This document shows, piece after piece, positions 2,958 through 39,615 of a stretch of DNA of 39,615 nucleotides. A model generated the notes under the pieces. That model had not been told where the DNA came from. It saw only the letters and a list, made by a program, of their open reading frames with translations, and ran no database searches. A program made the translations under genes and the position numbers. The stretch spans positions 1 to 39,615 of the IMG/VR virus record IMGVR_UViG_3300023301_000033. The stretch is one strand, 5' to 3'. This DNA comes from a virus. The first letter of the stretch is position 1, and every line of letters starts with the position of its first letter.

Positions 2958-3896
2958 TTAATAAGTCTCTTTATCATTTGTCATGCTGACTTGAATTGGT
3001 CCAGTTTTGTTCACATCATCATACAAAGCTCGTGCAGTGACTGATTGAGTAAGTCCATCTCTACCCTCTGCTGGTTGTCCAGAAGCGGTATAAACCATTC
3101 TCGGGAAGATGAAGTCTATGTTATCTCCAAAGCTTAATGTATAAACCATCTCCTCAATTACAGATGTACTTGGTCCATCAGAACCACCCCAAAATGCAAT
3201 CAATTCTTCATCAGAATCGAAGCCTAATTCCATCTCCATTTCAACTACCATGGAACCACGAAAAGCTTTGGTTGGGAATCGTGAACCAAATCCTTGGGAA
3301 CTCTCAATATCAGCACCTGTCTCAATAGACAAAGATAATGTATTGATATTTGCACTCTTGTCAGTAGCATCCTTTGTCAAACTTGCCATTGGTGCAGTGA
3401 AGAATTTACCTTCAGTGTAATCAACATCAGTTGCCAAAACATTCTTCTTGTCCTTGGCTCCTAGTGTAGTAACTGTCATCAATGCCCACTCGGACTCAAC
3501 TTCCAAACTAATACTCTCAACAACATTACCAAGGAAAACATGCTCCATGATGTCCTTACCAATCTTGGCTGAGAATGATTGCATTAATGGAGTTGTTGAT
3601 GGTGAAAATATATGAGTGAATGATGGTAATGTTCCTGTTACCTCATATCCACCTAATGCCCATTTGAAGAACCATCCTGAAACTAAATCATCCAATGGAA
3701 AAGTGATATCTCCTCCTGTGGAATATATTCCTAATCCTGCATGACGATCCAAACCACTCATACCTTCATAGATAAGTTTATCGTCTCCAGCAGGATCAAT
3801 ACTTACTGTCTCTGGGTCAATTGTCTCTGGGAATACTATTGCCTCAACCCCATATGAATCTTCCTTGCCAATTTTTAAATAACGTGTAATTGCCAT
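2958..3896 (-). CDS. Major tail tube protein
   Basis: ATG at 3896 with AGAGGAGGG upstream; 312 residues. The protein is beta-rich with many Gly, Thr and Ser, begins AITRYLKIGKEDSYG, and has recurring strand patterns (SISLEVESEWALMTVTTLGA and VYTLSFGDNIDF) as in Firmicute phage tail tube proteins. It polymerises as rings around the tape measure to form the tail tube. It lies directly after the tail terminator gene and before the chaperone genes. No tail sheath gene precedes it, which argues for a long non-contractile tail. Confidence 0.85.
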   Translation of the reverse strand: MAITRYLKIGKEDSYGVEAIVFPETIDPETVSIDPAGDDKLIYEGMSGLDRHAGLGIYSTGGDITFPLDDLVSGWFFKWALGGYEVTGTLPSFTHIFSPSTTPLMQSFSAKIGKDIMEHVFLGNVVESISLEVESEWALMTVTTLGAKDKKNVLATDVDYTEGKFFTAPMASLTKDATDKSANINTLSLSIETGADIESSQGFGSRFPTKAFRGSMVVEMEMELGFDSDEELIAFWGGSDGPSTSVIEEMVYTLSFGDNIDFIFPRMVYTASGQPAEGRDGLTQSVTARALYDDVNKTGPIQVSMTNDKETY

Positions 3897-3901
3897 ACTT
3901 A

Positions 3902-4348
3902 TTATTCCCTCCTCTGTAGCCTAAAAGCAAATTGTACTGATGACCAATATAGTTGAGTATTGTTTCCTGCTTCATATGCAGGATCAACTCTCATTGGTCT
4001 GACATCACTGACTAAACCACCTAATGTTCTATCTGCTGTAAACACATCGTATAAGGTCATTGACAATGCCTCTGCTTGCTTCAATTCCTCCTGTGGGTTA
4101 TTACCCTTAACTAGCACCACAAAGTCAAAGGTGAAGTCATGTTGTGCTGTTCTGCCACCTTTAAGTTCTGGTGCATAAGCTTCAGGAACCATCCACACTG
4201 CAGGAGACTTAAGTTTACCAATCCTTTGTCGCTCTCCATACACAACTTCTTGAATATCTGTCAAGTTCTCGTGACTCTCAATCTTGGTGATAATAGCTTC
4301 CCTAATTTCATTGAATAATTCAACTAAGGGTTTGGTATTAACGGACAT
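3902..4348 (-). CDS. Tail terminator / tail completion protein
   Basis: ATG at 4348 after CAGGAGGGG; 148 residues, stopping 5 bp before the tail tube gene. The N-terminus is an amphipathic helix (LVELFNEIREAIITKIE), followed by a proline-containing strand (KSPAVWMVPEAYAPEL) and an alpha/beta body, like the gpU/SPP1 gp17 group that caps the tail at the head-proximal end. The order connector, gp10-like, terminator, tube is standard. The family call is by position and general pattern. Confidence 0.7.
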   Translation of the reverse strand: MSVNTKPLVELFNEIREAIITKIESHENLTDIQEVVYGERQRIGKLKSPAVWMVPEAYAPELKGGRTAQHDFTFDFVVLVKGNNPQEELKQAEALSMTLYDVFTADRTLGGLVSDVRPMRVDPAYEAGNNTQLYWSSVQFAFRLQRRE

Positions 4349-4349
4349 C

Positions 4350-4763
4350 TTACAACCCCTCCTGATCTAGTGCCATTTGGACGAACTGTGGTATCCTTGA
4401 CTCTGCTGCAGCAATGGAACCTTCAATGTAATGTGTACCTTGGATACCAGGATGAAGAACTGCTTTGGCAAATATGAATCCTCCAGCAACTGAAAATCTC
4501 AACGATTTAGCTTGTCTAGGATATATCATATATGGGTCAGAACCATCATTCTGTACCAGTGCATATTTCACTTTGGTACCTATTGTGGATTCCATCTTGC
4601 CTTTACGTTGAAGAACCCATGAACCTGCAAGCCTACCATGGTCTTGAGGGGAGAACTCCATTAAGTTCCCCCACAATTCCTGTGCTGTTAAGTCATGGGT
4701 CTTTTGCAAGGCTCTCTTCACCTTTGGTATTAATTTGTCTAGGTCATCTCGATTAATTTCCAT
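4350..4763 (-). CDS. HK97 gp10-like head-tail joining protein
   Basis: ATG at 4763 with GGAGG upstream, overlapping the previous gene by 11 bp; 137 residues. A long N-terminal helix is followed by GRLAGSW and KVKYALVQNDGSDPYMIYPR, which resemble the 'grLr.Si.....YA..vefGt' core of the HK97 gp10/SPP1 gp16 group. These proteins sit in the neck and help join the finished tail to the connector. Spacing to the next gene is 1 bp, so the two are probably translationally coupled. Confidence 0.75.
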   Translation of the reverse strand: MEINRDDLDKLIPKVKRALQKTHDLTAQELWGNLMEFSPQDHGRLAGSWVLQRKGKMESTIGTKVKYALVQNDGSDPYMIYPRQAKSLRFSVAGGFIFAKAVLHPGIQGTHYIEGSIAAAESRIPQFVQMALDQEGL

Positions 4764-5202
4764 CTACAAAGTCCTCCAGTGAAGAGAATATGCTCATCCT
4801 ACCACTTGCACTACCTTGCTTGTAGCGAATAAATGGTTCCAGTTCCTTGTCAAGCTCTTTTGTAACCTCTCCTGTGTTGAGAATGTTAACTGCAAAACTA
4901 TTAATCTGCACCACTGGACTTGACCTTTGTTGTTGTGCAATGGCTACCAGATTAGCTACTGTTCTTATCAGCACATCTTGGATAGCTAAGAATTCTCCAT
5001 CCTGAATATCAACTTCTCTACCAATCCTGATGTAGATATGAGAAGCAATCTTCTCAACCCAATTCTCCAGGAGATTATTCAACGCTACTTCCTGGTCTGT
5101 AGCATTAGAAAATTCAAAATCTCCTGTCTTGATGCCAGTCATGTTTCTGATATCTCGAGCTGTCACTACTTCAGTGACTGTTTTCCCTGTGAATAAACTC
5201 AC
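4753..5202 (-). CDS. Head-tail connector (gp15/gp6-like adaptor)
   Basis: GTG at 5202 overlaps the stop of the preceding gene; AAAGGA lies 9 nt upstream. 149 residues, mostly helical, with two helices resembling head-completion adaptors (EVALNNLLENWVEKIASHIY and FLAIQDVLIRTVANLVAIAQ). Such proteins form the ring below the portal. The position, after capsid and YqbF-like genes and before the gp10-like gene, supports the call. Confidence 0.7.
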   Translation of the reverse strand: MSLFTGKTVTEVVTARDIRNMTGIKTGDFEFSNATDQEVALNNLLENWVEKIASHIYIRIGREVDIQDGEFLAIQDVLIRTVANLVAIAQQQRSSPVVQINSFAVNILNTGEVTKELDKELEPFIRYKQGSASGRMSIFSSLEDFVDGN

Positions 5203-5573
5203 TTCTTAATATCCTTTAGCTTATCCAGGAGTGTTGCACGATTCTTACCAGAAACCTCTTTTGCAATAGCCTCATCCAAATCGATCTTGCCATCTTCAAC
5301 AGCTTTCAGGACTTGCTCCATATTGAGTTCTGAGTAGTTGAGCTCTTGCTCCTCAACTACCTTCTCATCAACTTCTGCATCAACTTTGATTCCATCATCC
5401 GTATCCGCTTTGGTCTCAGGTTCAAGAACTACAACTTTGAAATCCTTTACTGCTCTTAGAGTTAGCAATTGTCGATTATTAACGGACAAGGCAACTTCCT
5501 GTTTCGGTTGAAAATTGTATCCTAATCGATTGCGTATTCTGTTTCCAACATTAGTTACCTTGACTTCATTCAT
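5199..5573 (-). CDS. YqbF-like small protein of the head module
   Basis: ATG at 5573 after GAGGGAGG; 124 residues. The N-terminal 50 residues look like a small beta domain (KVTNVGNRIRNRLGYNFQPK), the middle is acidic, and the C-terminal 35 residues form a helix-extension-helix-like unit (MEQVLKAVEDGKIDLDEAI) ending in a basic helix. This architecture and the position right after the capsid gene match YqbF of the B. subtilis skin element. Its function in the virion is not known to me; decoration or assembly is possible. Confidence 0.6.
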   Translation of the reverse strand: MNEVKVTNVGNRIRNRLGYNFQPKQEVALSVNNRQLLTLRAVKDFKVVVLEPETKADTDDGIKVDAEVDEKVVEEQELNYSELNMEQVLKAVEDGKIDLDEAIAKEVSGKNRATLLDKLKDIKK

Positions 5574-5590
5574 CAGTAATTACCTCCCTC

Positions 5591-6517
5591 TTATTGTCCT
5601 GTATATCCAGTACCTACTACAGAAGCATTCTCATCTTCAAAGTTAGCATCTACACGTAATGTAGTTACAAAATCAGTCTTACGTGCCTTTGGCATACGGT
5701 CTGGCTCAATGAAGATATCACGATACACACCATATACTAGGTTTGTTGCAGGTGCAAGGAATGCAGTACCCTCTGGCATATTCGCAGAATCTTGAATTGT
5801 GAACCCTTTGTATGCTAACTGTTGTCCAGTAGTCTGAGCAAAGTCACCTAAGCCAGTACCACGTGCTTTCAACACATTACGGTATGCATCTTCGATATCC
5901 CAGTGTACCCAAAAAGTCCACTCAGAACGATTACGCAAGAATTTCTTTGGTACTGATGCAACCATTGCATCAAACATTGCCTCAACATCTGTTGCATCAA
6001 ATGCAGGTGTGGTCGCTCCACCATCTACAAGATTAGCTGATTTCTTCAACCAACCATCAGTAAGTGCAAGGAATGCATCCCCAGAAGTTTTGTCACCATT
6101 AAGGAATAATTCTTCAAGGTCGATACCTGAACGGTCTGCAATTAGGTCAAGTAAAGTATCCTCGAACCCTGCACGCTCAATATTGTCTTCCATTGTTGAA
6201 TCAGTGATACCAGCAATCGCCATCACCTCTACAGATTCAAGAGTATTGGTATTGAATACTGGCTTGCTGTCGCTTGTTCCTGCCACACCTTCTGCTGCTG
6301 TACCTAGAATACGATCTGCGAATCCAACTCGGTCAATGTCGTGTGTGTGGCTCCTCATGTTGATTCTACGTGCTGAATCAAGCACTCGTGTAGCCTCTGA
6401 AATTGTCTGAACGAATTGCTCTTGCTTTGCAGTTGCTAATTTGCTTGAACCTAAATCAGTTGTCATTACTGATTTCAATGCACTATTAATCTTATCTAAC
6501 ATTTGTTGATTATTCAT
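5591..6517 (-). CDS. Major capsid protein
   Basis: ATG at 6517 with GGGGAG at 8 nt; 308 residues. It has the layout of an HK97-fold capsid protein of the XkdG/YqbE type: an N-terminal helix (NNQQMLDKINSALKSVM), a spine-helix region (GFEDTLLDLIADRSGIDLEE followed by LFLNGD), a peripheral domain and a C-terminal strand region (DFVTTLRVDANFEDENASVV). It follows the protease gene, which carries a probable scaffold tail. Codon use is typical of a highly expressed gene in this genome. Confidence 0.88.
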   Translation of the reverse strand: MNNQQMLDKINSALKSVMTTDLGSSKLATAKQEQFVQTISEATRVLDSARRINMRSHTHDIDRVGFADRILGTAAEGVAGTSDSKPVFNTNTLESVEVMAIAGITDSTMEDNIERAGFEDTLLDLIADRSGIDLEELFLNGDKTSGDAFLALTDGWLKKSANLVDGGATTPAFDATDVEAMFDAMVASVPKKFLRNRSEWTFWVHWDIEDAYRNVLKARGTGLGDFAQTTGQQLAYKGFTIQDSANMPEGTAFLAPATNLVYGVYRDIFIEPDRMPKARKTDFVTTLRVDANFEDENASVVGTGYTGQ

Positions 6518-6533
6518 AGTCTAATCTCCCCTT

Positions 6534-7919
6534 TTACTTCTTAATTTTGTAACCGAATGCATTCCGTGATGGCTTCTTGTCTTCATCTTCTGCTGACTTT
6601 TCTGTTCCATTGTCCTGACCAGTTAAGCGGTTTGAGAATGGCTTCTTCTTCAGGTCTTCAATCTGTTTTAATGCAGTTTCATACTTTTCTTTGTACTCAT
6701 CTTTCTCATCAGTACCTTTTGACTTTTCAGCTGACTCTTCCTCTTGCTCATCTTCACCTTTGGACTTCTCAGCTCCATCTTTCTCAGAACCATCTTCCTC
6801 CTGTGAGGATTTACCTAAGGACTTAATCACGTCATCAAGTTTAGTATTAACGGACTTAAATGACTCATCAATAAGTGCTTGAACTTCATCTTTTTCCATA
6901 TTCTTAGTGCCTCCCTTGGCTTTCGATTCTCGTTCTTTTTCACCAACGCTCAATAGGTCGTCGATGACTTCCTTAGCCTTACGTAACTTGTCCATGTTGG
7001 CATTGGAAATGACTTTTCCAGCTTTCTCAGTGGATTGACTCTTACCTTTGAAACCCATTCCCCTCATGAATTTACTCATGAATCCTTCTTCATCAGTATC
7101 TTTTGACTTGAATCCACCACCAAGCATGTTCTGAATTTCTACAACTGATTCCTGAACCATAACTTCCTTAGGTTCTTCTATAAAATCAACAGAACCCGTC
7201 TCAGATAATTCGTAGCCTACCTGATAAGTCTTACGTGTATTCTCTCTGTCATCAATGACTCTGAATACAACGGAATCCATCAATGTAGAATGGATAATTG
7301 GAAACTTGTCATATCCTGAGAACTGTTTATCTAGTTCCTGGTCAATTAGTTTCTTCCTATGTTCCAGTGAACCATTAATAGCTTTTTCTACTGTTTCATT
7401 CACGTCTGTGCTCACCCCCTTACTTTTAATAGCAAGCCATTTAGCTTTGGGTACTGCTGGCTCGTCAACCAATGACACTGCATTGACAATCCAATCATCC
7501 CCTAAGTCTGCTAAGGTGATTCGTTTGCTCTCTTGGTTCTTCTCTGCTGATTTCATAGCGGTCTTCTGTAGTGCCATGATAGAGAATCCACCAAGCTTCT
7601 TGTCCTTGACTGCTTTCCATGTAGCATCATCAGTAACTCGGGCTCCCATCATCCAGGAACCTTTTGGCACAATATTGTTATCTCCTGTGTCAATATCCAC
7701 TGGTAAAATATAACTCTCTACTAGCTTCCCTACATTATTCAAAGAATGTTGTAGGTCGATATTTCCATATTCCTCGACAAACTTGTGTGCTACTTGTTCG
7801 ATGTGCTCCGCTGATACAACATCTCCATCAGAATCTGGCTCATCAGGAATAAGAACTGGACCAAACACAATACGCTTCTCATCATTCTTATACACAATTG
7901 GTGCTGTTAACTCTGGCAT
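6534..7919 (-). CDS. XkdF-like prohead protease with scaffold-like C-terminal half
   Basis: I chose the ATG at 7919 because AAGGAG is 8 nt away; the ATG at 7925 is only 2 nt from it. Numbering from the first ATG, residues 15-170 form a protease domain with a probable catalytic His in DLQHSL (about H60) and Ser in GGFSIMAL (about S115), as in XkdF and S78-type prohead proteases. Residues from about 330 are highly charged, Lys/Glu/Ser rich and coiled-coil prone, like a fused scaffold that would be cut out on maturation. It lies directly before the capsid gene. Confidence 0.85.
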   Translation of the reverse strand: MPELTAPIVYKNDEKRIVFGPVLIPDEPDSDGDVVSAEHIEQVAHKFVEEYGNIDLQHSLNNVGKLVESYILPVDIDTGDNNIVPKGSWMMGARVTDDATWKAVKDKKLGGFSIMALQKTAMKSAEKNQESKRITLADLGDDWIVNAVSLVDEPAVPKAKWLAIKSKGVSTDVNETVEKAINGSLEHRKKLIDQELDKQFSGYDKFPIIHSTLMDSVVFRVIDDRENTRKTYQVGYELSETGSVDFIEEPKEVMVQESVVEIQNMLGGGFKSKDTDEEGFMSKFMRGMGFKGKSQSTEKAGKVISNANMDKLRKAKEVIDDLLSVGEKERESKAKGGTKNMEKDEVQALIDESFKSVNTKLDDVIKSLGKSSQEEDGSEKDGAEKSKGEDEQEEESAEKSKGTDEKDEYKEKYETALKQIEDLKKKPFSNRLTGQDNGTEKSAEDEDKKPSRNAFGYKIKK

Positions 7920-19987: not shown

Positions 19988-20107
19988 TTATGTGTCCTCC
20001 TTGTTGTTGGTTACTGCTTCTGCAGTGCTTCTACTGCTAACGTCTTTTAAACATTGTTCTACTGCTTGCAAGAATTCACCTCTAGCACACTTCTTACAAG
20101 CACTCAA
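19988..20107 (-). CDS. Small Cys-containing 39-aa protein
   Basis: TTG at 20107 overlaps the stop of dnaE (TTGA), so it would depend on translational coupling; no separate ribosome binding site is seen. The product begins MSACKKCARGEFLQAVEQC, a CxxC pair and a third Cys, followed by a Ser/Thr/Asn tail. It fills the gap between dnaE and the VOC gene exactly. Confidence 0.45.
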   Translation of the reverse strand: MSACKKCARGEFLQAVEQCLKDVSSRSTAEAVTNNKEDT

Positions 20108-21789
20108 TCTAACAATTTGATCTTGTTGATATACACTTTCCTATACTCTTCACTATACTTACCTGTTACAGATACAACACTACCCATTTTGACCTTGTCA
20201 ACCTCTGCTCTTATGCTAGGATCAACATATTTAAATCGATTAACCGTTGCATTTAGGGAACCAGATTCATCAGTAATCTCGAAGTGAACATACTCATTTA
20301 ATTCTGGTTGGTTAACCTCATCTTCATAATTCCTACCTTGACCTTCAACTACCTGACGTAAATCCATATCTCTCCTCTTGGTAATTCTACCTCCAACCCT
20401 GACGTAATCTCCTAATGTAGCATCCATAATTTTCTCCCTACCATACACTTTTGATAATCTGGTGGATACATCATGTATGCCAAGGTAATCAACTTCATTA
20501 TCTTCTTCATCAAACACTCTTGCAGCATCCAAAGATTGCTTGGCTTTCCCTCCAGGAATCTTTCCAGAAATTAACTTCTCAGCTGACTTTGGTCCAATTC
20601 CATGAATGGTCAAATATCCTGCTCGTATCCCATCCTTATCAATAGACCAACTTCCATCACTCTTACCGAACTTAACACCATAAACCTTGCCACCTTGTTG
20701 CATATACTCCAGGAGGATTCCTTCATTGTCTGGCTCTACAACTAAGTTTGCCCAATAGAATTCCTTTGGGTAATACATCTTCAGATACATACAGTAATAT
20801 CCTAGAAACGTATAACTGGTACTGTGTGCCACATTGAAACCGTATGCTCCAGCCTCACCGATCATATTCCATATCTTCTGACCCATATCCTTATCATCGA
20901 AGTTATCCAGGAATCTCTGGTGTATTGGTTCCAGTAATTCAATCCCCTCATTCTTGGTGATTAGTTTACGTACTGCAGTTACATCAGCCCACTCAAGGTT
21001 TCCTGCTTCTCTCAGAACCTTCATGGTTTGTTCTTGGAACAGAATCTGTCCACGACTTCTGTCAGTATGCTTGGTAACTATCGGGTGGATATATTCTCTC
21101 TGCTTCTTGATGTAAGCATCTGTTGCTCCTGATGAAAGTGGTCCAGGTCTACTCAATGCATTTATGTCAACAAGCTCTGTGAAATTCACTGGCTCCACCT
21201 GTTGAGATACACGCTTGGTAGAACCCCCTTCATACTGGAATACCCCTTGGAAGTTTTCCCCTTTGAATGCATCATAAGTTTTCTTGTCGTCCAGTGGAAT
21301 CTCATTATACATCCATTCAGGAGTCTTACCAATAACTTCCAAACATCTGCTCAGAATGGTCAATGTTGTCAGACTTAACATATCAATCTTCATCAGTCCA
21401 ATATACTCGATATCCCTCTTGTCCAACATTAATCCTGATCTTCCCACAGTGGCAAAATCTTTGAGTTTCTCACTGGCTACAACAACTCCTGCAGCATGAA
21501 CAGTTAGGTGACGAATCATCCCTTCAACATCACACAGGTATACATATTCTGGAAAGAATTGTTCCATTATCTCCTGTAGGGTTAAGCCCCCACCATTCTC
21601 TTTCAGCTTGTTCTTGGCAGTATCTATCCTTGCTTTGGGTATCTTATACACTCTTCCCATATCGTCCAGGAGGCTCTTTGGTTTGAATAACGAATATCCA
21701 GCAATGTTTGATACGTGTTCCAAACCATACTTCTCTTGTAAATACACCTTGACTTCATCACGTCTATCATCCTGAAAATCAATGTCAAT
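20104..21789 (-). CDS. dnaE: DNA polymerase III alpha subunit (DnaE), exon 2
   Basis: This is the C-terminal 561 residues of a phage DnaE. It begins with IDIDFQDDRRDEV, the second half of the catalytic motif PD-x-D-x-D, and carries the third active-site Asp in LMKIDMLSLTTL. The fingers region (AYGFNVAHSTSYTFLGY), the helix-hairpin-helix (YLTIHGIGPKSAEKLI) and a C-terminal OB fold (about the last 110 residues) follow. A nominal ATG at 21792 lies in the intron and would give a polymerase without its N-terminal half. The exon starts at 21789 after splicing of the intron at 21790-22073; spliced product 931 residues. Confidence 0.9.
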   Translation of the reverse strand: MDIDFQDDRRDEVKVYLQEKYGLEHVSNIAGYSLFKPKSLLDDMGRVYKIPKARIDTAKNKLKENGGGLTLQEIMEQFFPEYVYLCDVEGMIRHLTVHAAGVVVASEKLKDFATVGRSGLMLDKRDIEYIGLMKIDMLSLTTLTILSRCLEVIGKTPEWMYNEIPLDDKKTYDAFKGENFQGVFQYEGGSTKRVSQQVEPVNFTELVDINALSRPGPLSSGATDAYIKKQREYIHPIVTKHTDRSRGQILFQEQTMKVLREAGNLEWADVTAVRKLITKNEGIELLEPIHQRFLDNFDDKDMGQKIWNMIGEAGAYGFNVAHSTSYTFLGYYCMYLKMYYPKEFYWANLVVEPDNEGILLEYMQQGGKVYGVKFGKSDGSWSIDKDGIRAGYLTIHGIGPKSAEKLISGKIPGGKAKQSLDAARVFDEEDNEVDYLGIHDVSTRLSKVYGREKIMDATLGDYVRVGGRITKRRDMDLRQVVEGQGRNYEDEVNQPELNEYVHFEITDESGSLNATVNRFKYVDPSIRAEVDKVKMGSVVSVTGKYSEEYRKVYINKIKLLD

Positions 21790-22073
21790 CATGTCATTCC
21801 ACTATTTCTAATGGCATGGACTATATCTTCACCTGTTCTAGGTGTTCAGCACTTCGAATGGTAGCAATATCCACCCTACTCCCCAATGGGATAGTCTCTA
21901 CACCTTTCCAATGTTTCACCTCCTTAGGATTAACATTATCTTTGGCACGAGATTACCATAACTTATTTAAGTCTTAGGTTTCCTCGTTAGCAACCTTATG
22001 GTCACACCTGCTTGCAATAGCAGTTCACTAAACTTAACCTCATACATTCCTGTACAAGACGACATTATTACAT
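21790..22073 (-). ncRNA. Group I intron in dnaE (284 nt, no ORF)
   Basis: The intron separates PPD from IDIDF; removal restores CCT CCA GAT ATT GAC ATT GAT in frame. The exon ends in U and the intron in G, as required. Core pairings seen: ACGAG (21987-21983) with CUCGU (21951-21947) in the P/Q region (P4), and GACUA (21896-21892) with UAGUC (21823-21819) in R/S (P7), within AAGAUAUAGUCC. An internal guide GUCUUG (22060-22055) pairs with the exon end CAGAU with U-G at the splice site; AAUGUC next to it can pair with GACAUU of exon 2. It holds no homing endonuclease. The intron begins AUGUAA, so unspliced mRNA stops at once. Confidence 0.9.
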
Positions 22074-23183
22074 ATCTGGAGGGTCGTATCTAGAAACATC
22101 AATGAATCTCTCAAACAATAATCCATATGGTATTGGGTCAACTTCTGTTATGCCAATCAAGTAAGATACCAAACTTCCTGCAGCAGAACCACGTGCTGGA
22201 CCAACTAAGATTGATTGCTCTTTTGCCCATTGAACAAGGTCGCTAACTACAAGAAAATAATCAATATAATCCTTGTCCTTGATCAGGTTAAGTTCTCGGA
22301 ACATTCTCTCCAAGTATGGTTTTTGTTGCTCCTTAGTGATACCTCTCTTCTTCCAACCAACCCTACATTCCTCAACCAGTCTCTCATATGGATTACCCAC
22401 ATTGAACTTTAGTTGCTCTGCTTTGGGAAGATCGAATTCCTCCACTAGGTCTGCCACACGGATTGAATTGACTATTGCCTGTTCACTTGCACCCCAATCC
22501 AACATATCCTGTGCAGTTGCCATTTTAGAGCGTTTACTAGGTTTCCTGCCTCTCCCTTTACTCTTAACCGAAGTCAGGAAGTTAACGATTTCATCCTGTC
22601 CATCGAATATGAATTTGGTATCGTTGGTTGCCACCATTGGAACTTTGTTACCTCTTGACAACATCATTGCTTGACGGTTGATCATCTGATCCTTTGACAT
22701 ATCAATCTCAACACAAAGATGGTCGATATTATTCTTCATTTCCTCAAGTCGCTCTTCCGCTTCATTCATATCTCCAGAAAGGGAGCTTCCAGTGAGAACC
22801 ACTAACCCCTCCTGTAGGTTATACACCTCCCTGTACTCCACGGTTGGCACATAGTAGAAATGGTCTTCAGTGTACCCAAGGTTAGCTAGGTGCAGCAAGT
22901 TACTGTAACCTTGTGAATCCTTGGCTATAACCAACAGATTATCCTTGTTTCTGTCCTTATCTGAGTGATTTTCCACCACATTAAGCACAACTCCATAAAT
23001 AGGTTTCATCCCATGCTTTTGACAAGCTTTCTCCAACTTGGGATGACTATTAGTATGGCTCCCTTCTGCCAGACAAACTGCTTTGTGTCCAATCTCTTTG
23101 GCTCGTTCTACAATCTGATCAGGCATACCAAAACCCTGACATATACTGAATGTAGACTGAGTTCTCAAACTAACATAATCCAT
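22074..23183 (-). CDS. dnaE: DNA polymerase III alpha subunit (DnaE), exon 1
   Basis: ATG at 23183, 1 codon after the previous stop; 370 codons to the intron. Residues 1-230 are the PHP domain, but the metal-binding HxH at the start is replaced (LRTQSTFSICQG), so the PHP site is probably inactive. The palm follows: SILVGPARGSAAGSLVSYLIG, then LLFERFIDVSRYDPPD, where the catalytic motif is broken by the intron. With exon 2 it makes the main replicative polymerase of the phage. It forms a complete module with primase-helicase, resolvase and SSB in this window. Confidence 0.92.
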
Positions 23184-27520: not shown

Positions 27521-27913
27521 TTATTCCTTAGCGTCGTTTCCAACCCCATCAATTTCACTCTGGTCTTCTTCTGCAACCTCAACACCATTAATATTGTCTA
27601 GGTAAGCTTTCTTTGCAGCATGCAAATCTTTGAGAGATGTCTCAATAGGAAATTCCTCAATGATTTCCATCTCAATAGCACCATGAGACTCATCAAATTC
27701 TGCTTGCAACTTCTTGTTAGAATGTCTGCCATTATTTAACTGCTTGTGGTAATCACGGAAACAAACCTCAACTTGTGAAGATACACCATAATGTTCGAAT
27801 CCTGATTGCTCGTTGAAAATACGGAAGATACCCTTAGTTTTCTTTGCCTTTGGCTTTTCCTCAACTGCTTCTTCCTGTTCTGCTACCTCTACGTTTTCAT
27901 TAACTTCTGTCAT
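27521..27913 (-). CDS. GIY-YIG-fold-like protein with acidic tails (130 aa)
   Basis: ATG at 27913 with AGGAGG, overlapping the upstream gene by 14 bp. Residues 27-90 resemble a GIY-YIG domain: KGIFRIFNEQSGFEHYGVSS, FRDYHKQLNNGRHSNKKLQA, then EMEIIEEF. GIY is GIF and YIG is HYG. The Arg after YIG seems present (CFRDY). The ends are acidic and lysine-rich. A related protein is encoded at 36.6-37.1 kb. It may be an inactive nuclease fold used for binding. Confidence 0.65.
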   Translation of the reverse strand: MTEVNENVEVAEQEEAVEEKPKAKKTKGIFRIFNEQSGFEHYGVSSQVEVCFRDYHKQLNNGRHSNKKLQAEFDESHGAIEMEIIEEFPIETSLKDLHAAKKAYLDNINGVEVAEEDQSEIDGVGNDAKE

Positions 27914-35619: not shown

Positions 35620-36085
35620 TATTGATCACGCTCCTAACTTTCTCCTTAGCTCTCACATAAATACGACTAATCTGGGATTGACTCAACCCAATGGCATCTG
35701 AAATTTCCTTCTGATTATATCCATCCATGGTCATACAAACGATCTTGAATTCATTATCATCCAAATAGACTCTTACGCTATCCATTGTCTCATCGTACCC
35801 TGTTTCATAATAGGTAATATCGAGTTTCAACTCATCTGTACTCTCAGTTGTGTGCTTGAATTTTCTCATCTCCTGAAGAACCTCGTTGGAAATTACTCGG
35901 AAAGCAAAGGTGCTGAATTTGACACCCTTGCTATCATCAAACCCTTTTGCTGCTTTGTACAATCCAATAAGTGCCATCTGCTTGATGTCCTCAAAATCCA
36001 CCATTGTCTTCGGTATGAATCTGTGTGCCACTTTGTAAGCTAGTTTCTCATTATCATTTACTAATTTCTCCACGTTGTTTTGCAT
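35600..36085 (-). CDS. Phage RNA polymerase sigma factor (sigma-70 family)
   Basis: The ATG at 36085 is used, with GAGGAGAGG upstream. 161 residues. Region 2: AYKVAHRFIPKTMVDFEDIK, then ALIGLYKAAKGFDDSKGVKF and STFAFRVISNEVLQEMRK. Region 4: NQKEISDAIGLSQSQISRIY followed by VRAKEKV. Region 3 is absent, as in short phage and SigK/SigF-like factors. It could direct host RNA polymerase to late promoters. Its leader contains one of the three structured elements (36103-36150), so it may be under RNA-level control. Confidence 0.88.
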   Translation of the reverse strand: MQNNVEKLVNDNEKLAYKVAHRFIPKTMVDFEDIKQMALIGLYKAAKGFDDSKGVKFSTFAFRVISNEVLQEMRKFKHTTESTDELKLDITYYETGYDETMDSVRVYLDDNEFKIVCMTMDGYNQKEISDAIGLSQSQISRIYVRAKEKVRSVINNGSLVG

Positions 36086-36102
36086 TTTGCATTTCCTCTC
36101 CT

Positions 36103-36150
36103 CGAACCGATAAATCTAGTATGCATCATCGTCATCGGTTTCGCACATAT
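36103..36150 (-). ncRNA. Structured intergenic element, copy 1 (before the sigma gene)
   Basis: On the minus strand AUAUGUGC-GAAACCGAU-9 nt-GCAUACUA-spacer-AUCGGUUCG. CGAAACCGAU can pair with AUCGGUUCG with one bulged A, and UGUGC with GCAUA, in the interleaved order of an H-type pseudoknot. The last strand abuts the GAGGAGAGG site of the sigma gene. Confidence 0.5.
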
Positions 36151-36154
36151 TATT

Positions 36155-36466
36155 TTAGTATCTAGTTGGCAATCTGAAGTCGAAGTTGAATCCCTTTTCT
36201 GGTTCTTCCAATAGCTCTGTGATAGCCACCCATAATGTACTTTTGCGAATCACGATTTGGAAGAAATCATCACCATTTTGGAACAAATTAATCATGCTTG
36301 AATCCTGACAGTTGATCCAATATCGATCACGATTCTTGTACAGATAATATAGAACATTCTGCAAATGATTCTTCTCCATATCTCTCAGTTCAATGCCATT
36401 GCCGTAACTGTCCATCCAGCTATCTCTGTTCAAAACTGTCTCTGTGCTCATTTTCTTCATCATCAT
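36155..36466 (-). CDS. Unknown 103-aa protein downstream of a hammerhead
   Basis: ATG at 36466 with AGGAGGAGA 7-8 nt away, followed by more Met codons. The product has DSWMDSYGNGIELRDMEKNH, an aromatic middle (VLYYLYKNRDRYWINCQ) and ends FNFDFRLPTRY. No family recognised. Its mRNA would start at, or be cut at, the hammerhead ribozyme 65 nt upstream. Confidence 0.7.
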   Translation of the reverse strand: MMMKKMSTETVLNRDSWMDSYGNGIELRDMEKNHLQNVLYYLYKNRDRYWINCQDSSMINLFQNGDDFFQIVIRKSTLWVAITELLEEPEKGFNFDFRLPTRY

Positions 36467-36484
36467 TAAAATCTCCTCCTGTAG

Positions 36485-36600
36485 GATAATACTAGGTCTG
36501 TCTCATCAGACTGGCTAGACCATCAACCAGTAACCACTTGCTTCCCCAATTCTCTGCCTACATATCTGGCAAGTGGTTTCGACTGATTTTCATTATTATC
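36485..36600 (-). ncRNA. Hammerhead ribozyme, type II
   Basis: All core parts are in place. GAA (36580-36578) is followed by stem III ACCACUUGC/GCAAGUGGU (36577-36569 with 36541-36533), one unpaired U (36532), stem I ACUGG/CCAGU (36531-36527 with 36514-36510), then CUGAUGA (36509-36503) and stem II beginning GAC/GUC with the expected G-C pair. After an A-A mismatch come GA/UC, and GAUAAUA (36600-36594) pairs with UAUUAUC (36491-36485) as an outer helix. Self-cleavage is expected between 36532 and 36531. The first strand contains the stop codon of the upstream gene. Confidence 0.88.
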
Positions 36601-37111
36601 GTCCGTTCTTAACGTTATATACAGTTGACTTGCTTACACTGAACTCCTCAGCAATATCTTTGATTGAAACATTCTGGCTGATTCTTTCAAGAATCTTAGC
36701 ATTACGTTCTTCAATAGTCATCTCAGTAGCTTTAGGTTCTTCCACTTTTACCGTTGATTCAACCGCTTCTGGAGTCATTGGATACTGTTCTTGTGGGTTA
36801 ATTACCTGTGCTGAATTATCGTAATCTTCAACCATGCCAAGTTCCTTGTAATTCTTCTTAAGTTCCTTCAATCTTGACTTATCGTCACATTTGATAAGGA
36901 CAGTGTAATCAAACAACTCGATAGCATCTTCAATATCCATTCCCTCAAAAACTAAATCGTTGGCATGAGACTGAATTGCCTTTGGTGCTTTGTTCTTCTT
37001 GATCCAACCCATGTAATCTCTGAATGCAATTTCAATCTGTGTTGAAGCTCCAACGTAAATTTCCTCTCCCTGTACCTCTACTGCGAATACTCCACTTGTG
37101 TTCTTTTCCAT
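36596..37111 (-). CDS. GIY-YIG-like domain fused to a C-terminal HTH (171 aa)
   Basis: ATG at 37111; AAGGAG is 9 nt away, while the ATG at 37120 abuts it. Residues 4-50 match the protein at 27.5 kb: TSGVFAVEVQGEEIYVGAST, then QIEIAFRDYMGWIKKNKAPK. GIY is GVF and YIG is YVG. A linker with a Glu/Pro-rich part leads to an HTH at about 135-170 (IKDIAEEFSVSKSTVYNVKN). It may be a DNA-binding regulator that kept a nuclease fold; whether it cuts is unclear. Confidence 0.7.
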   Translation of the reverse strand: MEKNTSGVFAVEVQGEEIYVGASTQIEIAFRDYMGWIKKNKAPKAIQSHANDLVFEGMDIEDAIELFDYTVLIKCDDKSRLKELKKNYKELGMVEDYDNSAQVINPQEQYPMTPEAVESTVKVEEPKATEMTIEERNAKILERISQNVSIKDIAEEFSVSKSTVYNVKNGR

Positions 37112-37199
37112 AATAAACATCTCCTTATAATTTAGTAGTTTTGTGGTTCTCTCGAACCGATAATCTAAGTATGCTTGATCCTTATCAGCTTCGCACACT
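37112..37199 (-). ncRNA. Structured intergenic element, copy 2, and tetraloop hairpin
   Basis: Element at 37153-37204: AAGUGUGC pairs with GCAUACUU (one G-U) and CGAAGCUGAU with AUCGGUUCG (two wobbles, one bulge), interleaved. Overlapping its end, GGUUC-GAGA-GAACC forms a perfect hairpin that would compete with the second helix. ACUAAAUUAUAAGGAGAUG follows, containing the ribosome binding site. Confidence 0.5.
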
Positions 37200-37292
37200 T
37201 TATTTTGAATTGTTTGAAATTAAATCTCCTTCATCCATTCCCATGAATACAACTTCCAAAACAACCATGACTGCTCTCCCAATATTAATCAT
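37200..37292 (-). CDS. Small 30-aa protein
   Basis: ATG at 37292 with GAGAGGAGG 8 nt away. The product, starting MINIGRAVMVVLEVVFMGMD, is hydrophobic in its first 18 residues and may insert in the membrane. Its stop codon is the start of element copy 2. The excellent ribosome binding site argues that it is translated. Confidence 0.5.
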   Translation of the reverse strand: MINIGRAVMVVLEVVFMGMDEGDLISNNSK

Positions 37293-37307
37293 CTTGCCAC
37301 CTCCTCT

Positions 37308-37356
37308 CCAATAAACTAAGTATGCAACAACGGTATCGGTTTCGCATACTTTATTT
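37308..37356 (-). ncRNA. Structured intergenic element, copy 3
   Basis: AAGUAUGC pairs perfectly with GCAUACUU, and CCGAU within GAAACCGAU with AUUGG (37312-37308), which runs into the GGAGAGGAGG site of the 30-aa gene. The nine bases between the conserved blocks differ from copies 1 and 2. Confidence 0.5.
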
Positions 37357-37365
37357 GTAATTTGT

Positions 37366-37477
37366 TGAAACTATTTTAAAATTCATTCCTACCAGTCTTT
37401 CCATTGTTGGTTATGTTGAATTCCTGGGAGTTTAAATGCACTTCCACGATCACTGGTAGGTTAACTAGCATCTAGGA
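37366..37477 (-). other. Gap with a long 9-bp inverted repeat and a weak 31-codon frame
   Basis: CCTACCAGT (37388-37396) and ACTGGTAGG (37452-37460) are perfectly complementary. On the minus strand an ATG at 37471 opens a 31-codon frame without a ribosome binding site, ending at 37376. A second frame without a start reads like a protein end (PGIQHNQQWKDW). This could be a folded RNA or remains of a gene. It is not a tRNA. Confidence 0.35.
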
Positions 37478-37999
37478 TCAAAAATTCTTTGACATAATCC
37501 CTGACTTCGGTATCCATCCCTGATATGTTATAGAAGTGATCATATCTCTGATCTTCTCAATATCTTTCTCCTCCTGTGGGATATGGTAATGCTTGCCACA
37601 TTCTGGACCAATGCCATACAGCACACTAACTGGATGAGTCAAGTCTCTGCCACAGTGCCTGCAAATGGATGTTGGAGTTGCTATCGCTCTACCATCCACC
37701 TTGTATGCCTTCTCTGTCTCTCCAATTATGGCAACTTCCAATTCCCTTGGAGTCTCCATCTTAACAGCTAACCACTTTTGTAGATATATGGTTCCACGCT
37801 TCTGTTGGTTGGGTTGTAACTTTCTCCACTTGGTTTTGTAGATGTTACCAAGATCAATTCTCAGGGTATCCTTATATTCTGGTTTAATAAGGAAGATTCC
37901 TGCAAGCCAATTACCAACGTCTTCCAATTTCTGGAGGTTGTCAGCCTTGGCAACATCTTGCTCAAACTTATTATAAATTTCCAATTCCGTCATATTCAT
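37478..37999 (-). CDS. DUF6011-like zinc-binding protein (173 aa)
   Basis: ATG at 37999 overlaps the upstream stop (ATGA). The first 100 residues are helical. Residues 113-139 contain CRHCGRDLTHPVSVLYGIGP followed by ECGKHY, the CxxCxRxL...GxGPxC signature I associate with DUF6011, a probable zinc-binding unit in phage proteins. Function unknown. Confidence 0.75.
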   Translation of the reverse strand: MNMTELEIYNKFEQDVAKADNLQKLEDVGNWLAGIFLIKPEYKDTLRIDLGNIYKTKWRKLQPNQQKRGTIYLQKWLAVKMETPRELEVAIIGETEKAYKVDGRAIATPTSICRHCGRDLTHPVSVLYGIGPECGKHYHIPQEEKDIEKIRDMITSITYQGWIPKSGIMSKNF

Positions 38000-38235
38000 T
38001 TTGACACCACCAACATCTTGACCACTCCCACTCTTCTCAGTTCGTGAATAAATTCTTCTGCATTGCTATATTCAATCTTGGAACCATCCCACACCTCACA
38101 ACGCTTGGCAACTTCTGACATATAATCCTCCTTTGATGAAGGTCGCACCCACACATCTAACTTCATGGCAGATACGATATCCTCGTAACTGTTAGCTTCA
38201 AATGATGCATTATCTTCCAATATAACTTTAATCAT
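37996..38235 (-). CDS. Unknown 79-aa protein
   Basis: ATG at 38235 with AAGGAGGTC. The product has alternating strands and helices (MIKVILEDNASFEANSYEDI, then EVWDGSKIEYSNAEEFIHEL) and ends VVKMLVVSK. No family recognised. Its leader contains a possible hammerhead ribozyme. Confidence 0.7.
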   Translation of the reverse strand: MIKVILEDNASFEANSYEDIVSAMKLDVWVRPSSKEDYMSEVAKRCEVWDGSKIEYSNAEEFIHELRRVGVVKMLVVSK

Positions 38236-38256
38236 AATATTGACCTCCTTATTATT

Positions 38257-38334
38257 TTAGCCTATATCATCAGTGATGGTAGGCTATCTCCACCAAACTA
38301 CCCTTTTGGGTAGTTTCAACTATTATGAAGCTAA
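38257..38334 (-). ncRNA. Candidate second hammerhead ribozyme, weaker stem II
   Basis: GAA (38317-38315), stem III ACUACCC-AAAA-GGGUAGU (38314-38297), single U (38296), stem I UGGUGG/CCAUCA (38295-38290 with 38279-38274, one G-U), CUGAUGA (38273-38267). These follow each other with the exact hammerhead spacing. Stem II is poor: the first pair would be U-U; an outer UUAGC/GCUAA helix (38334-38330, 38261-38257) may close it. Cleavage would be between 38296 and 38295. Alternatively the AGCCUA/UAGGCU hairpin forms. Confidence 0.55.
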
Positions 38335-39132
38335 CTTGTTGATTCTCTTGCCGATGAACTTAACTGCTTTCTGTTGTAGTTCATCTGCTCCCATCCATCC
38401 GTACCCACGAATAACCTTCTTGAAGTTGAAGTAATCATCAGCTCCTGGTTTCAATTGGATTGTGCTGTTAATGGAGCGTTCAACCATCATCTGTGTGATT
38501 ACTATCCAAGCTTGCAACTTGTCAAAATTCGTTGTTCCTTGGTGTTGTCTGAACTCAATTGTTCCGTGTCGTCTGAAGCTCTGGCAGTTCAGTTTCACAT
38601 AACGATCGCCGTATATTCTGTCAATAATCTCATCCACTGAAGTTGCTGCCTTGAGTCTTTCCAAGTTCGTGCTTGGGCTCTTGCACATGTTGTTGTTGCT
38701 TCCACGTCTGCTTGGTGACAACATGCTGTCAATCGTATCTTCATATCTGCTGTACATTCCATATATATTCTTGAAAGTCTTCAATGTAAAGTCAGTAGCG
38801 TCATGGTGGACATGAATCCCACAAGAATGATCAATCTTGGCTCCAACCTGATCCAATGCATCAGTAACTTTCTTGAGTTCAGCTAATCCCTGTTTGCCTT
38901 TAAGGATAGGAGATACAATCTCAAGTCCTTCGTGTGCAACACTTGCATCATAAACTAGCTTCCAATATCTTCTAGTTGTGTGACTGTATCCTTCCCAGTT
39001 TACTTGTATGCCATTGCTTGCAAGTGCTGCAAGAACCTTGTCAACTGCTCTTGCTCGTGATCCCTCTTTAAGGAAAAACTCAATCTCAACACCAAATGTT
39101 CTGTTCTCGCTAAATCCTTCATTCTTCTTCAT
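38323..39132 (-). CDS. Amidoligase-family enzyme
   Basis: ATG at 39132 (or TTG at 39138) after AAGGAG. About 269 residues. It matches the putative amidoligase family: TFGVEIEFFLKEGSR at the start, GLEIVSPILKGKQGLAELKK, CGIHVHHDATDFTLKTFKNI, and TIEFRQHQGTTNFDKLQAW. These enzymes are COOH-NH2 ligases related to glutamine synthetase. The substrate, perhaps a peptide, a host protein or cell-wall material, is not evident. It is one of the first early genes after the main promoter. Confidence 0.82.
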   Translation of the reverse strand: MKKNEGFSENRTFGVEIEFFLKEGSRARAVDKVLAALASNGIQVNWEGYSHTTRRYWKLVYDASVAHEGLEIVSPILKGKQGLAELKKVTDALDQVGAKIDHSCGIHVHHDATDFTLKTFKNIYGMYSRYEDTIDSMLSPSRRGSNNNMCKSPSTNLERLKAATSVDEIIDRIYGDRYVKLNCQSFRRHGTIEFRQHQGTTNFDKLQAWIVITQMMVERSINSTIQLKPGADDYFNFKKVIRGYGWMGADELQQKAVKFIGKRINKLAS

Positions 39133-39138
39133 AACCAA

Positions 39139-39181
39139 TCATCTCCTTATAATTTAGTAGGAGGGCGAACCCTCCACAGTG
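39139..39181 (-). promoter_or_regulatory. UUCG-tetraloop hairpin leader of the amidoligase gene
   Basis: GGAGGG-UUCG-CCCUCC on the minus strand is followed directly by UACUAAAUUAUAAGGAGAUG, the same end as the leader of the GIY-YIG/HTH gene at 37.1 kb. There is no run of U, so it is not a terminator. It may stabilise the mRNA or position the ribosome. Confidence 0.6.
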
Positions 39182-39346
39182 TTAGTAAACGAACTTAAAG
39201 TCATTATAGTCGATGTCGTCAAAGCCTTGTTCTGTGATAAATTTTTGTTCATCGAATTCGATTTGTTCTAGTGCTTCTTGGACGGTTAAACTTTTGTTCG
39301 TTGTGATTTCCCCTACCAAGATTTCTTCATAAAATAATTTAGCCAT
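39182..39346 (-). CDS. Small acidic 54-aa early protein
   Basis: ATG at 39346 with AGGAGG 7 nt away. The product is acidic (MAKLFYEEILVGEITTNKSL, later FDDIDYNDFKFVY). It is the first gene after the strong early promoter at 39388-39416. Small acidic early proteins of phages often inhibit host enzymes, but nothing specific can be read here. Confidence 0.75.
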   Translation of the reverse strand: MAKLFYEEILVGEITTNKSLTVQEALEQIEFDEQKFITEQGFDDIDYNDFKFVY

Positions 39347-39387
39347 TTTAATTCCTCCTGTTTTGTTTGTTTCTTAACTACAACCTT

Positions 39388-39416
39388 AGTATATCATGTG
39401 ATATACAATTAGTCAA
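39388..39416 (-). promoter_or_regulatory. Strong sigma-A promoter
   Basis: On the minus strand TTGACT (39416-39411), 17-bp spacer, TATACT (39393-39388). Transcription would start near 39381 and run into the 54-aa, amidoligase and following early genes. Confidence 0.85.
39389..39406. promoter_or_regulatory. Palindromic operator in the early promoter
   Basis: GTATATCACATGATATAC has perfect 8-bp arms around a 2-bp centre and covers part of the spacer and most of the -10. A protein bound here would block RNA polymerase. The ribbon-helix-helix protein encoded just upstream is the obvious candidate. Confidence 0.8.
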
Positions 39417-39421
39417 CCTTT

Positions 39422-39562
39422 TTATTCGTTTTCTTCAATATATTTTTTAATCCATTGTCGCAACAATTCCGCGCGATTGACCGCGTTTTTTTCAGTCGCC
39501 AGATTTAGGGATTCTAAATCTTCTTTTGGTAATCTAACTACAAATGAACTATCGTTTGTCAC
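39422..39562 (-). CDS. Ribbon-helix-helix transcriptional regulator (46 aa)
   Basis: GTG at 39562 with GGAGG 10 nt upstream. SFVVRLPKEDLESLNLATEK is the ribbon and first helix, NRAELLRQWIKKYIEENE the second helix, the CopG/Arc pattern. Such dimers bind palindromes. The gene ends 6 bp before the early promoter with its operator, so it is the likely repressor of the early operon. Its own promoter must lie at or beyond the window edge. Confidence 0.8.
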   Translation of the reverse strand: MTNDSSFVVRLPKEDLESLNLATEKNAVNRAELLRQWIKKYIEENE

Positions 39563-39615
39563 GTTGATCAATCCTCCATACTACGTTTATTTATCAAACA
39601 TCCACATGACCTAGT

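Follow-up and report, generated by a model that had tools for sequence, protein, structure and literature searches.

A pseudoknotted type II hammerhead ribozyme between co-directional phage genes, predicted to cut an early polycistronic RNA

The 39,615-nucleotide stretch of viral DNA that we analysed (the window) contains on its minus strand a complete type II hammerhead motif, located between two co-directional genes and ahead of an SD sequence (Table 1). We consider it probable that this element (the target) is a pseudoknot-stabilised hammerhead ribozyme (HHR) of the kind widespread in tailed phages, and that it cuts an early polycistronic RNA between cistrons.

On the minus strand the target runs in the order GUC-GAA-A...U-U/A...-CUGAUGA-GAC (slash, predicted cut), which comprises all of the conserved hammerhead nucleotides in type II order: CUGANGA ... 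GAA is accompanied by A15.1-U16.1 and an H17, stems I and III are closed by loops, and stem II is open and carries G10.1-C11.1. Loop I and the 3′ tail form a pseudoknot of 5 bp (GGUCU/AGACC), as in the majority of type II hammerheads. Stem I (5 bp, with U.G as a sixth pair) belongs to a hairpin whose 22-nt layout is identical to that of the class surveyed below, and H17 is U in both hammerheads of the window, in contrast to the C found mostly in the class. A sequence-only reading of this DNA had correctly described the core, the nine pairs of stem III, the five pairs of stem I, their coordinates and the cut between 36532 and 36531, all as read on the minus strand. Its G-C first pair of stem II also stands, but that stem extends over three pairs (GUC/GAC) rather than one. 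The pseudoknot between loop I and the 3′ tail, a typical part of type II hammerheads, had been overlooked.

Table 1. Coordinates of the two hammerheads, the surrounding genes and a promoter-like site (positions in the window).
Feature	Position	Strand	Basis
Target type II HHR, stem II 5′ strand to pseudoknot end	36495..36583	-	RF02276, model R1, descriptor
Target stem II GUC/GAC, 3 bp	36583-36581/36502-36500	-	sequence
Target GAA	36580-36578	-	sequence
Target stem III hairpin ACCACUUGC/GCAAGUGGU, 9 bp, long apical region	36533..36577, strands 36577-36569/36541-36533	-	sequence; pairing probability about 1
Target predicted cleavage site, between U17 (36532) and A1.1 (36531)	36531..36532	-	hammerhead geometry
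Target stem I hairpin ACUGG/CCAGU, loop I with GGUCU	36510..36531, strands 36531-36527/36514-36510	-	sequence
Target core CUGAUGA	36503..36509	-	sequence
Target 3′ tail AGACC, pairs with loop I GGUCU (36521-36517)	36495..36499	-	sequence; class covariation
Second type II HHR	38258..38320	-	model R1 match 38322-38255; sequence
Second HHR GAA	38317-38315	-	
Second HHR stem III, 7 bp	38314-38308/38303-38297	-	
Second HHR predicted cleavage site	between 38296 and 38295	-	
Second HHR stem I, 6 bp	38295-38290/38279-38274	-	
Second HHR core CUGAUGA, intact	38273-38267	-	
Second HHR pseudoknot UAGCCU/AGGCUA, six pairs	38286-38281 with 38263-38258	-	
Promoter-like TTGACT-17-TATACT, TG before -10; candidate early promoter upstream of amidoligase gene	39388..39416	-	consensus match
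Amidoligase gene, 271 aa, stop UAA 38325-38323	38323..39138	-	gene frame, Pfam
79-aa gene, first in block between HHRs	37996..38235	-	open frame
173-aa gene (DUF6011), second in block	37478..37999	-	open frame, Pfam
Upstream gene, up to 200 aa, C-terminal HTH, stop codon 36598-36596	36596..37198	-	Pfam
Downstream 103-aa gene, phrog_22814 (unknown function), SD AGGAGG about 36480-36475	36155..36466	-	
RNA polymerase sigma factor gene, 161 aa	35600..36085	-	Pfam Sigma70_r2/r4

The Rfam type II model (RF02276, Hammerhead_II) aligned to the whole site with a score of 36.0 bits (E 2.4e-6 with 123 nt searched), 1 bit below its gathering cut-off of 37 bits. This family search, which the sequence-only reading had proposed as a check, gave that score at the scale of 123 nt; the target was not listed in an Rfam scan of the whole window, in a 221-nt scan or when RF02276 was run on the record. 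Because the 123-nt scan yields 36.0 bits, we suspect the speed filters, which together with the long stem III apex probably account for the loss of the target from the larger scans; a standard Rfam scan can miss such ribozymes. Our own covariance model (R1), built from 45 other phage hammerheads with the window excluded from training, gave the target 48.6 bits (E 1.3e-11), and the intact core and the two model scores (36.0 and 48.6 bits) strongly support the identity that had been read from the letters. A chance match might be suspected, given that the hammerhead motif is short and that the target goes unreported under the default filters and cut-off of Rfam, but we assign it next to no probability. 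When a type II descriptor with four-pair stems was applied to 6395 dinucleotide shuffles of the window, it made 162 loose matches (0.025 per window), and none of the 6395 shuffled windows had a match as good as the target. The E value from the independent model R1 and the presence of the pseudoknot, which had been left out of the search, likewise speak against chance, which at the level of sequence is excluded. No type I or type III hammerhead was found in the window.

Our survey of related hammerheads was seeded by scanning viral contigs for GTCGAAAC...GTH...CTGATGAGAC, which supplied at least 120 stretches, to which a few other loci were added. Built from this one sequence pattern, with near-identical contigs dropped only where the ribozyme was identical, the set held at least 175 full descriptor matches in at least 115 sources, compared with one match in one shuffle of the entire set, and about 170 distinct hammerheads from viral contigs were among the matches listed. 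All four helices covaried in an alignment of 45 hammerheads (201 cells with double-sided changes versus 52 in shuffles), and double changes occurred in five of the six pseudoknot pairs. Pseudoknots with four or more pairs were present in 117 of 175 hammerheads among the matches listed, as opposed to about 41 when the tails were redealt. Contigs contained up to at least 13 hammerheads, often clustered (the 13 matches are those in the whole record behind L010). At one locus (L040, 8123-11322, plus strand) hammerheads alternate with single genes, each stop abutting the next hammerhead, and another type II array occupies 3616-6704 on the plus strand of L096.

As judged from sequence, the evidence for the target is its membership in this covarying class, not conservation at its locus. 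Our searches turned up no phage that is closely related to this one and has a hammerhead at the same site: phage records contained no match to the locus by blastn or to the 200-aa gene by tblastn, and nothing was confirmed when viral contigs were scanned with the 103-aa and sigma proteins or when an alignment of the 103-aa family was used to scan genome contigs. Lactobacillus and Staphylococcus phages carry relatives of the 103-aa gene (aligned identity 40-45%) with no hammerhead nearby, so gene and ribozyme do not form a fixed pair. The relative nearest by helicase (L004, 59% identity) has no hammerhead match in its 18-kb fragment, whose end falls immediately upstream of the sigma gene, and another helicase relative (L126, 26%) has two hammerheads, elsewhere.

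A second type II hammerhead, absent from the sequence-only reading, lies 1.8 kb upstream of the target. Model R1 scored it at 57.6 bits (E 3.6e-14), above the target, while Rfam run on this region alone returned no match at E 1. Its stem II is weak and nearly absent, with GUU/UAU giving a U-A and a G.U pair and leaving U.U at 10.1-11.1. With its filters off, model R1 found no further hammerhead with a good score in the window. The two hammerheads, on the same strand, flank co-directional genes, and with the second one found they bracket a block of three (79, 173 and up to 200 aa).

The earlier placement of the 103-aa gene downstream, followed by the sigma factor gene, was confirmed, but a GIY-YIG identity for the upstream gene was not borne out, as Pfam at E 0.01 finds only the C-terminal HTH. 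The sole convincing minus-strand promoter-like site within 35900-39615 is that at 39416-39388, a consensus match and as such weak evidence in a region whose shuffled versions contain more matches of this sort; at the target site itself the minus strand showed neither a convincing promoter nor a convincing terminator. Intercistronic cutting of an early polycistronic RNA is the most likely function of the target, with cleavage being predicted. Transcribed leftward as part of such an RNA, the target would fold after 36495 had been passed and would then cut itself between 36532 and 36531. The upstream message, with the HTH gene last, would end in the stem III hairpin and a 2′,3′-cyclic phosphate, and the downstream message (the 103-aa gene, the sigma factor gene and onward) would start with a 5′-OH and carry the stem I hairpin directly ahead of its ribosome-binding site. 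If both hammerheads cut, a three-gene RNA segment (38295-36532) would be released; since both lie in gaps between genes, the long early transcript is probably cut into shorter pieces. Adjacent cistrons would thereby be uncoupled, permitting independent decay and translation. We infer cleavage, the chemistry of the ends and an effect on mRNA fate that would include end protection and uncoupled translation, and the intercistronic position is consistent with such separate fates.

Hammerhead cleavage leaves 5′-OH and 2′,3′-cyclic phosphate ends, which are compatible with RtcB. Such ends would suit joining, and a pair of hammerheads in direct orientation brackets three genes, so one could imagine that the 1.76-kb RNA excised by both has its ends joined to give a circular mRNA, either by reversal of the ribozyme reaction or by a ligase of the RtcB type. 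We regard this as highly improbable: spliced or circular products were sought by Perreault et al. and none was found (PMC3088659), and most phage hammerhead arrays are better explained by intercistronic cutting between single genes.

Phage hammerhead arrays that flank genes are already known (Perreault et al., 2011; PMC3088659), and the target belongs among them. Cleavage has been observed for some hammerheads from prophage arrays, both in vitro and in E. coli, and intercistronic cutting was proposed for these arrays (PMC3088659); De la Pena and co-workers describe the role of prokaryotic hammerheads as an open question (PMC6155905). The target shares with the type II hammerheads of RF02276 (PMC3088659) the open stem II, the core, the pseudoknot between loop I and the 3′ tail, a location between (pro)phage genes and tandem occurrence, and differs from them in its long stem III apex, its U at H17 and its score 1 bit under the cut-off; the second hammerhead differs in being almost without stem II. 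In the phage tandems of Clostridium scindens, Azorhizobium caulinodans and Agrobacterium tumefaciens (PMC3088659), hammerheads likewise flank single genes or short blocks within a polycistronic RNA, although the phages and genes are other ones and the activity shown for those tandems is predicted here. The HHphage of haloviruses HF1 and HF2 (PMC3088659) also lies immediately ahead of an early gene within a polycistronic phage transcript, but it has a variant core and a transcript 5′ end mapped near its cleavage site. To these systems can be added the early operon of the window, in which two hammerheads lie next to a sigma factor gene. That the target might be a relic, or a slow and non-functional hammerhead without appreciable cutting in the cell, is suggested by the U at its cleavage site, by the U.U mismatch at 10.1-11.1 of the second hammerhead and by the inactivity of some consensus hammerheads (4 of 18 tested; PMC3088659). 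We find this doubtful, because drift would have broken the core nucleotides, three stems and pseudoknot that are all intact in the target, and because both copies in the one operon retain the class layout.

Phage hammerheads in the surveyed set usually adjoin the stop codon of the preceding gene. With genes called mechanically as open frames, 107 of the 170 distinct hammerheads among the matches listed had, ending nearby, an upstream frame that spanned 100 codons or more, and in 74 of these 107 (L005-L124, among the matches listed) the stop codon fell within -2 to +6 nt of stem II, which was true of 35 of 1140 random positions (3%) and 6 of 191 TCGAAA decoys. Among these listed matches the commonest arrangement was a UAG whose G is common to stem II, and a start codon with an SD followed at a median of 21 nt past the pseudoknot tail. 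In the window, the second hammerhead begins 2 nt past the amidoligase UAA and an in-frame UAG overlaps its stem II, whereas the target is spaced more loosely than the class, with the upstream stop 12 nt before stem II and the start 28 nt on. One reading of this measured regularity is a stop-docked class, in which a ribosome terminating upstream would cover stem II and the GAA strand, such that termination would time cleavage and monocistronic release. Cleavage timed in this manner, as opposed to constitutive cleavage, is a conjecture that we think unlikely to hold; the second hammerhead, with its UAA and then UAG, would exemplify it. Genome compaction is a simpler reading of the same regularity. 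The positional rule of stop codon, ribozyme and SD makes both the separation of mRNAs and a possible link to translation termination directly testable.

The seven-pair outer helix of the sequence-only reading (36600-36594/36491-36485) is present, and seven pairs are reached in 138 of 5000 shuffled versions of the upstream flank. The class as a whole has no excess of such helices; we rejected the outer helix as a class feature, and the translational control that had been proposed to act through it and the stop codon is unsupported.

Another helix, AAUCAGU/ACUGGUU (36588-36525, minus strand), would mask stem I, and nearest-neighbour folding without the pseudoknot gave the competing fold -31.5 kcal/mol versus -27.0 kcal/mol for the nested hammerhead. 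Only about 7% of the class, among the matches listed, has a competing fold of this kind, and regulation of the target is possible on this modelling. In a switching hammerhead, the AAUCAGU flank would block the 5′ strand of stem I until it was freed by a terminating ribosome or by a ligand of the stem III apex. The competing fold's advantage of 4.5 kcal/mol when the pseudoknot is left out, uncommon in the class, points in this direction, as do the long stem III apex and the stop codon 12 nt upstream, where a terminating ribosome, by the size of its footprint, could cover part of the flank. However, the energy model omits the pseudoknot and the tertiary core, stem I would win in a growing chain once its 3′ strand exists, the class shows no surplus of the outer helix, and we know of no ligand or conserved apex for the target's stem III. 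A switch therefore seems improbable to us; were it real, cleavage would report translation of the upstream gene.

Two further observations concern other parts of the window. The stretch 27698-27847 (minus strand) is weakly similar to residues 31-78 of the 200-aa protein (36% over ~48 aa, E 0.001). A group I intron (RF00028, 57.8 bits; 21798-22065, minus strand) lies between ORFs 22068-23183 and 20104-21792, each of which matches part of a DnaE-type DNA polymerase III alpha.
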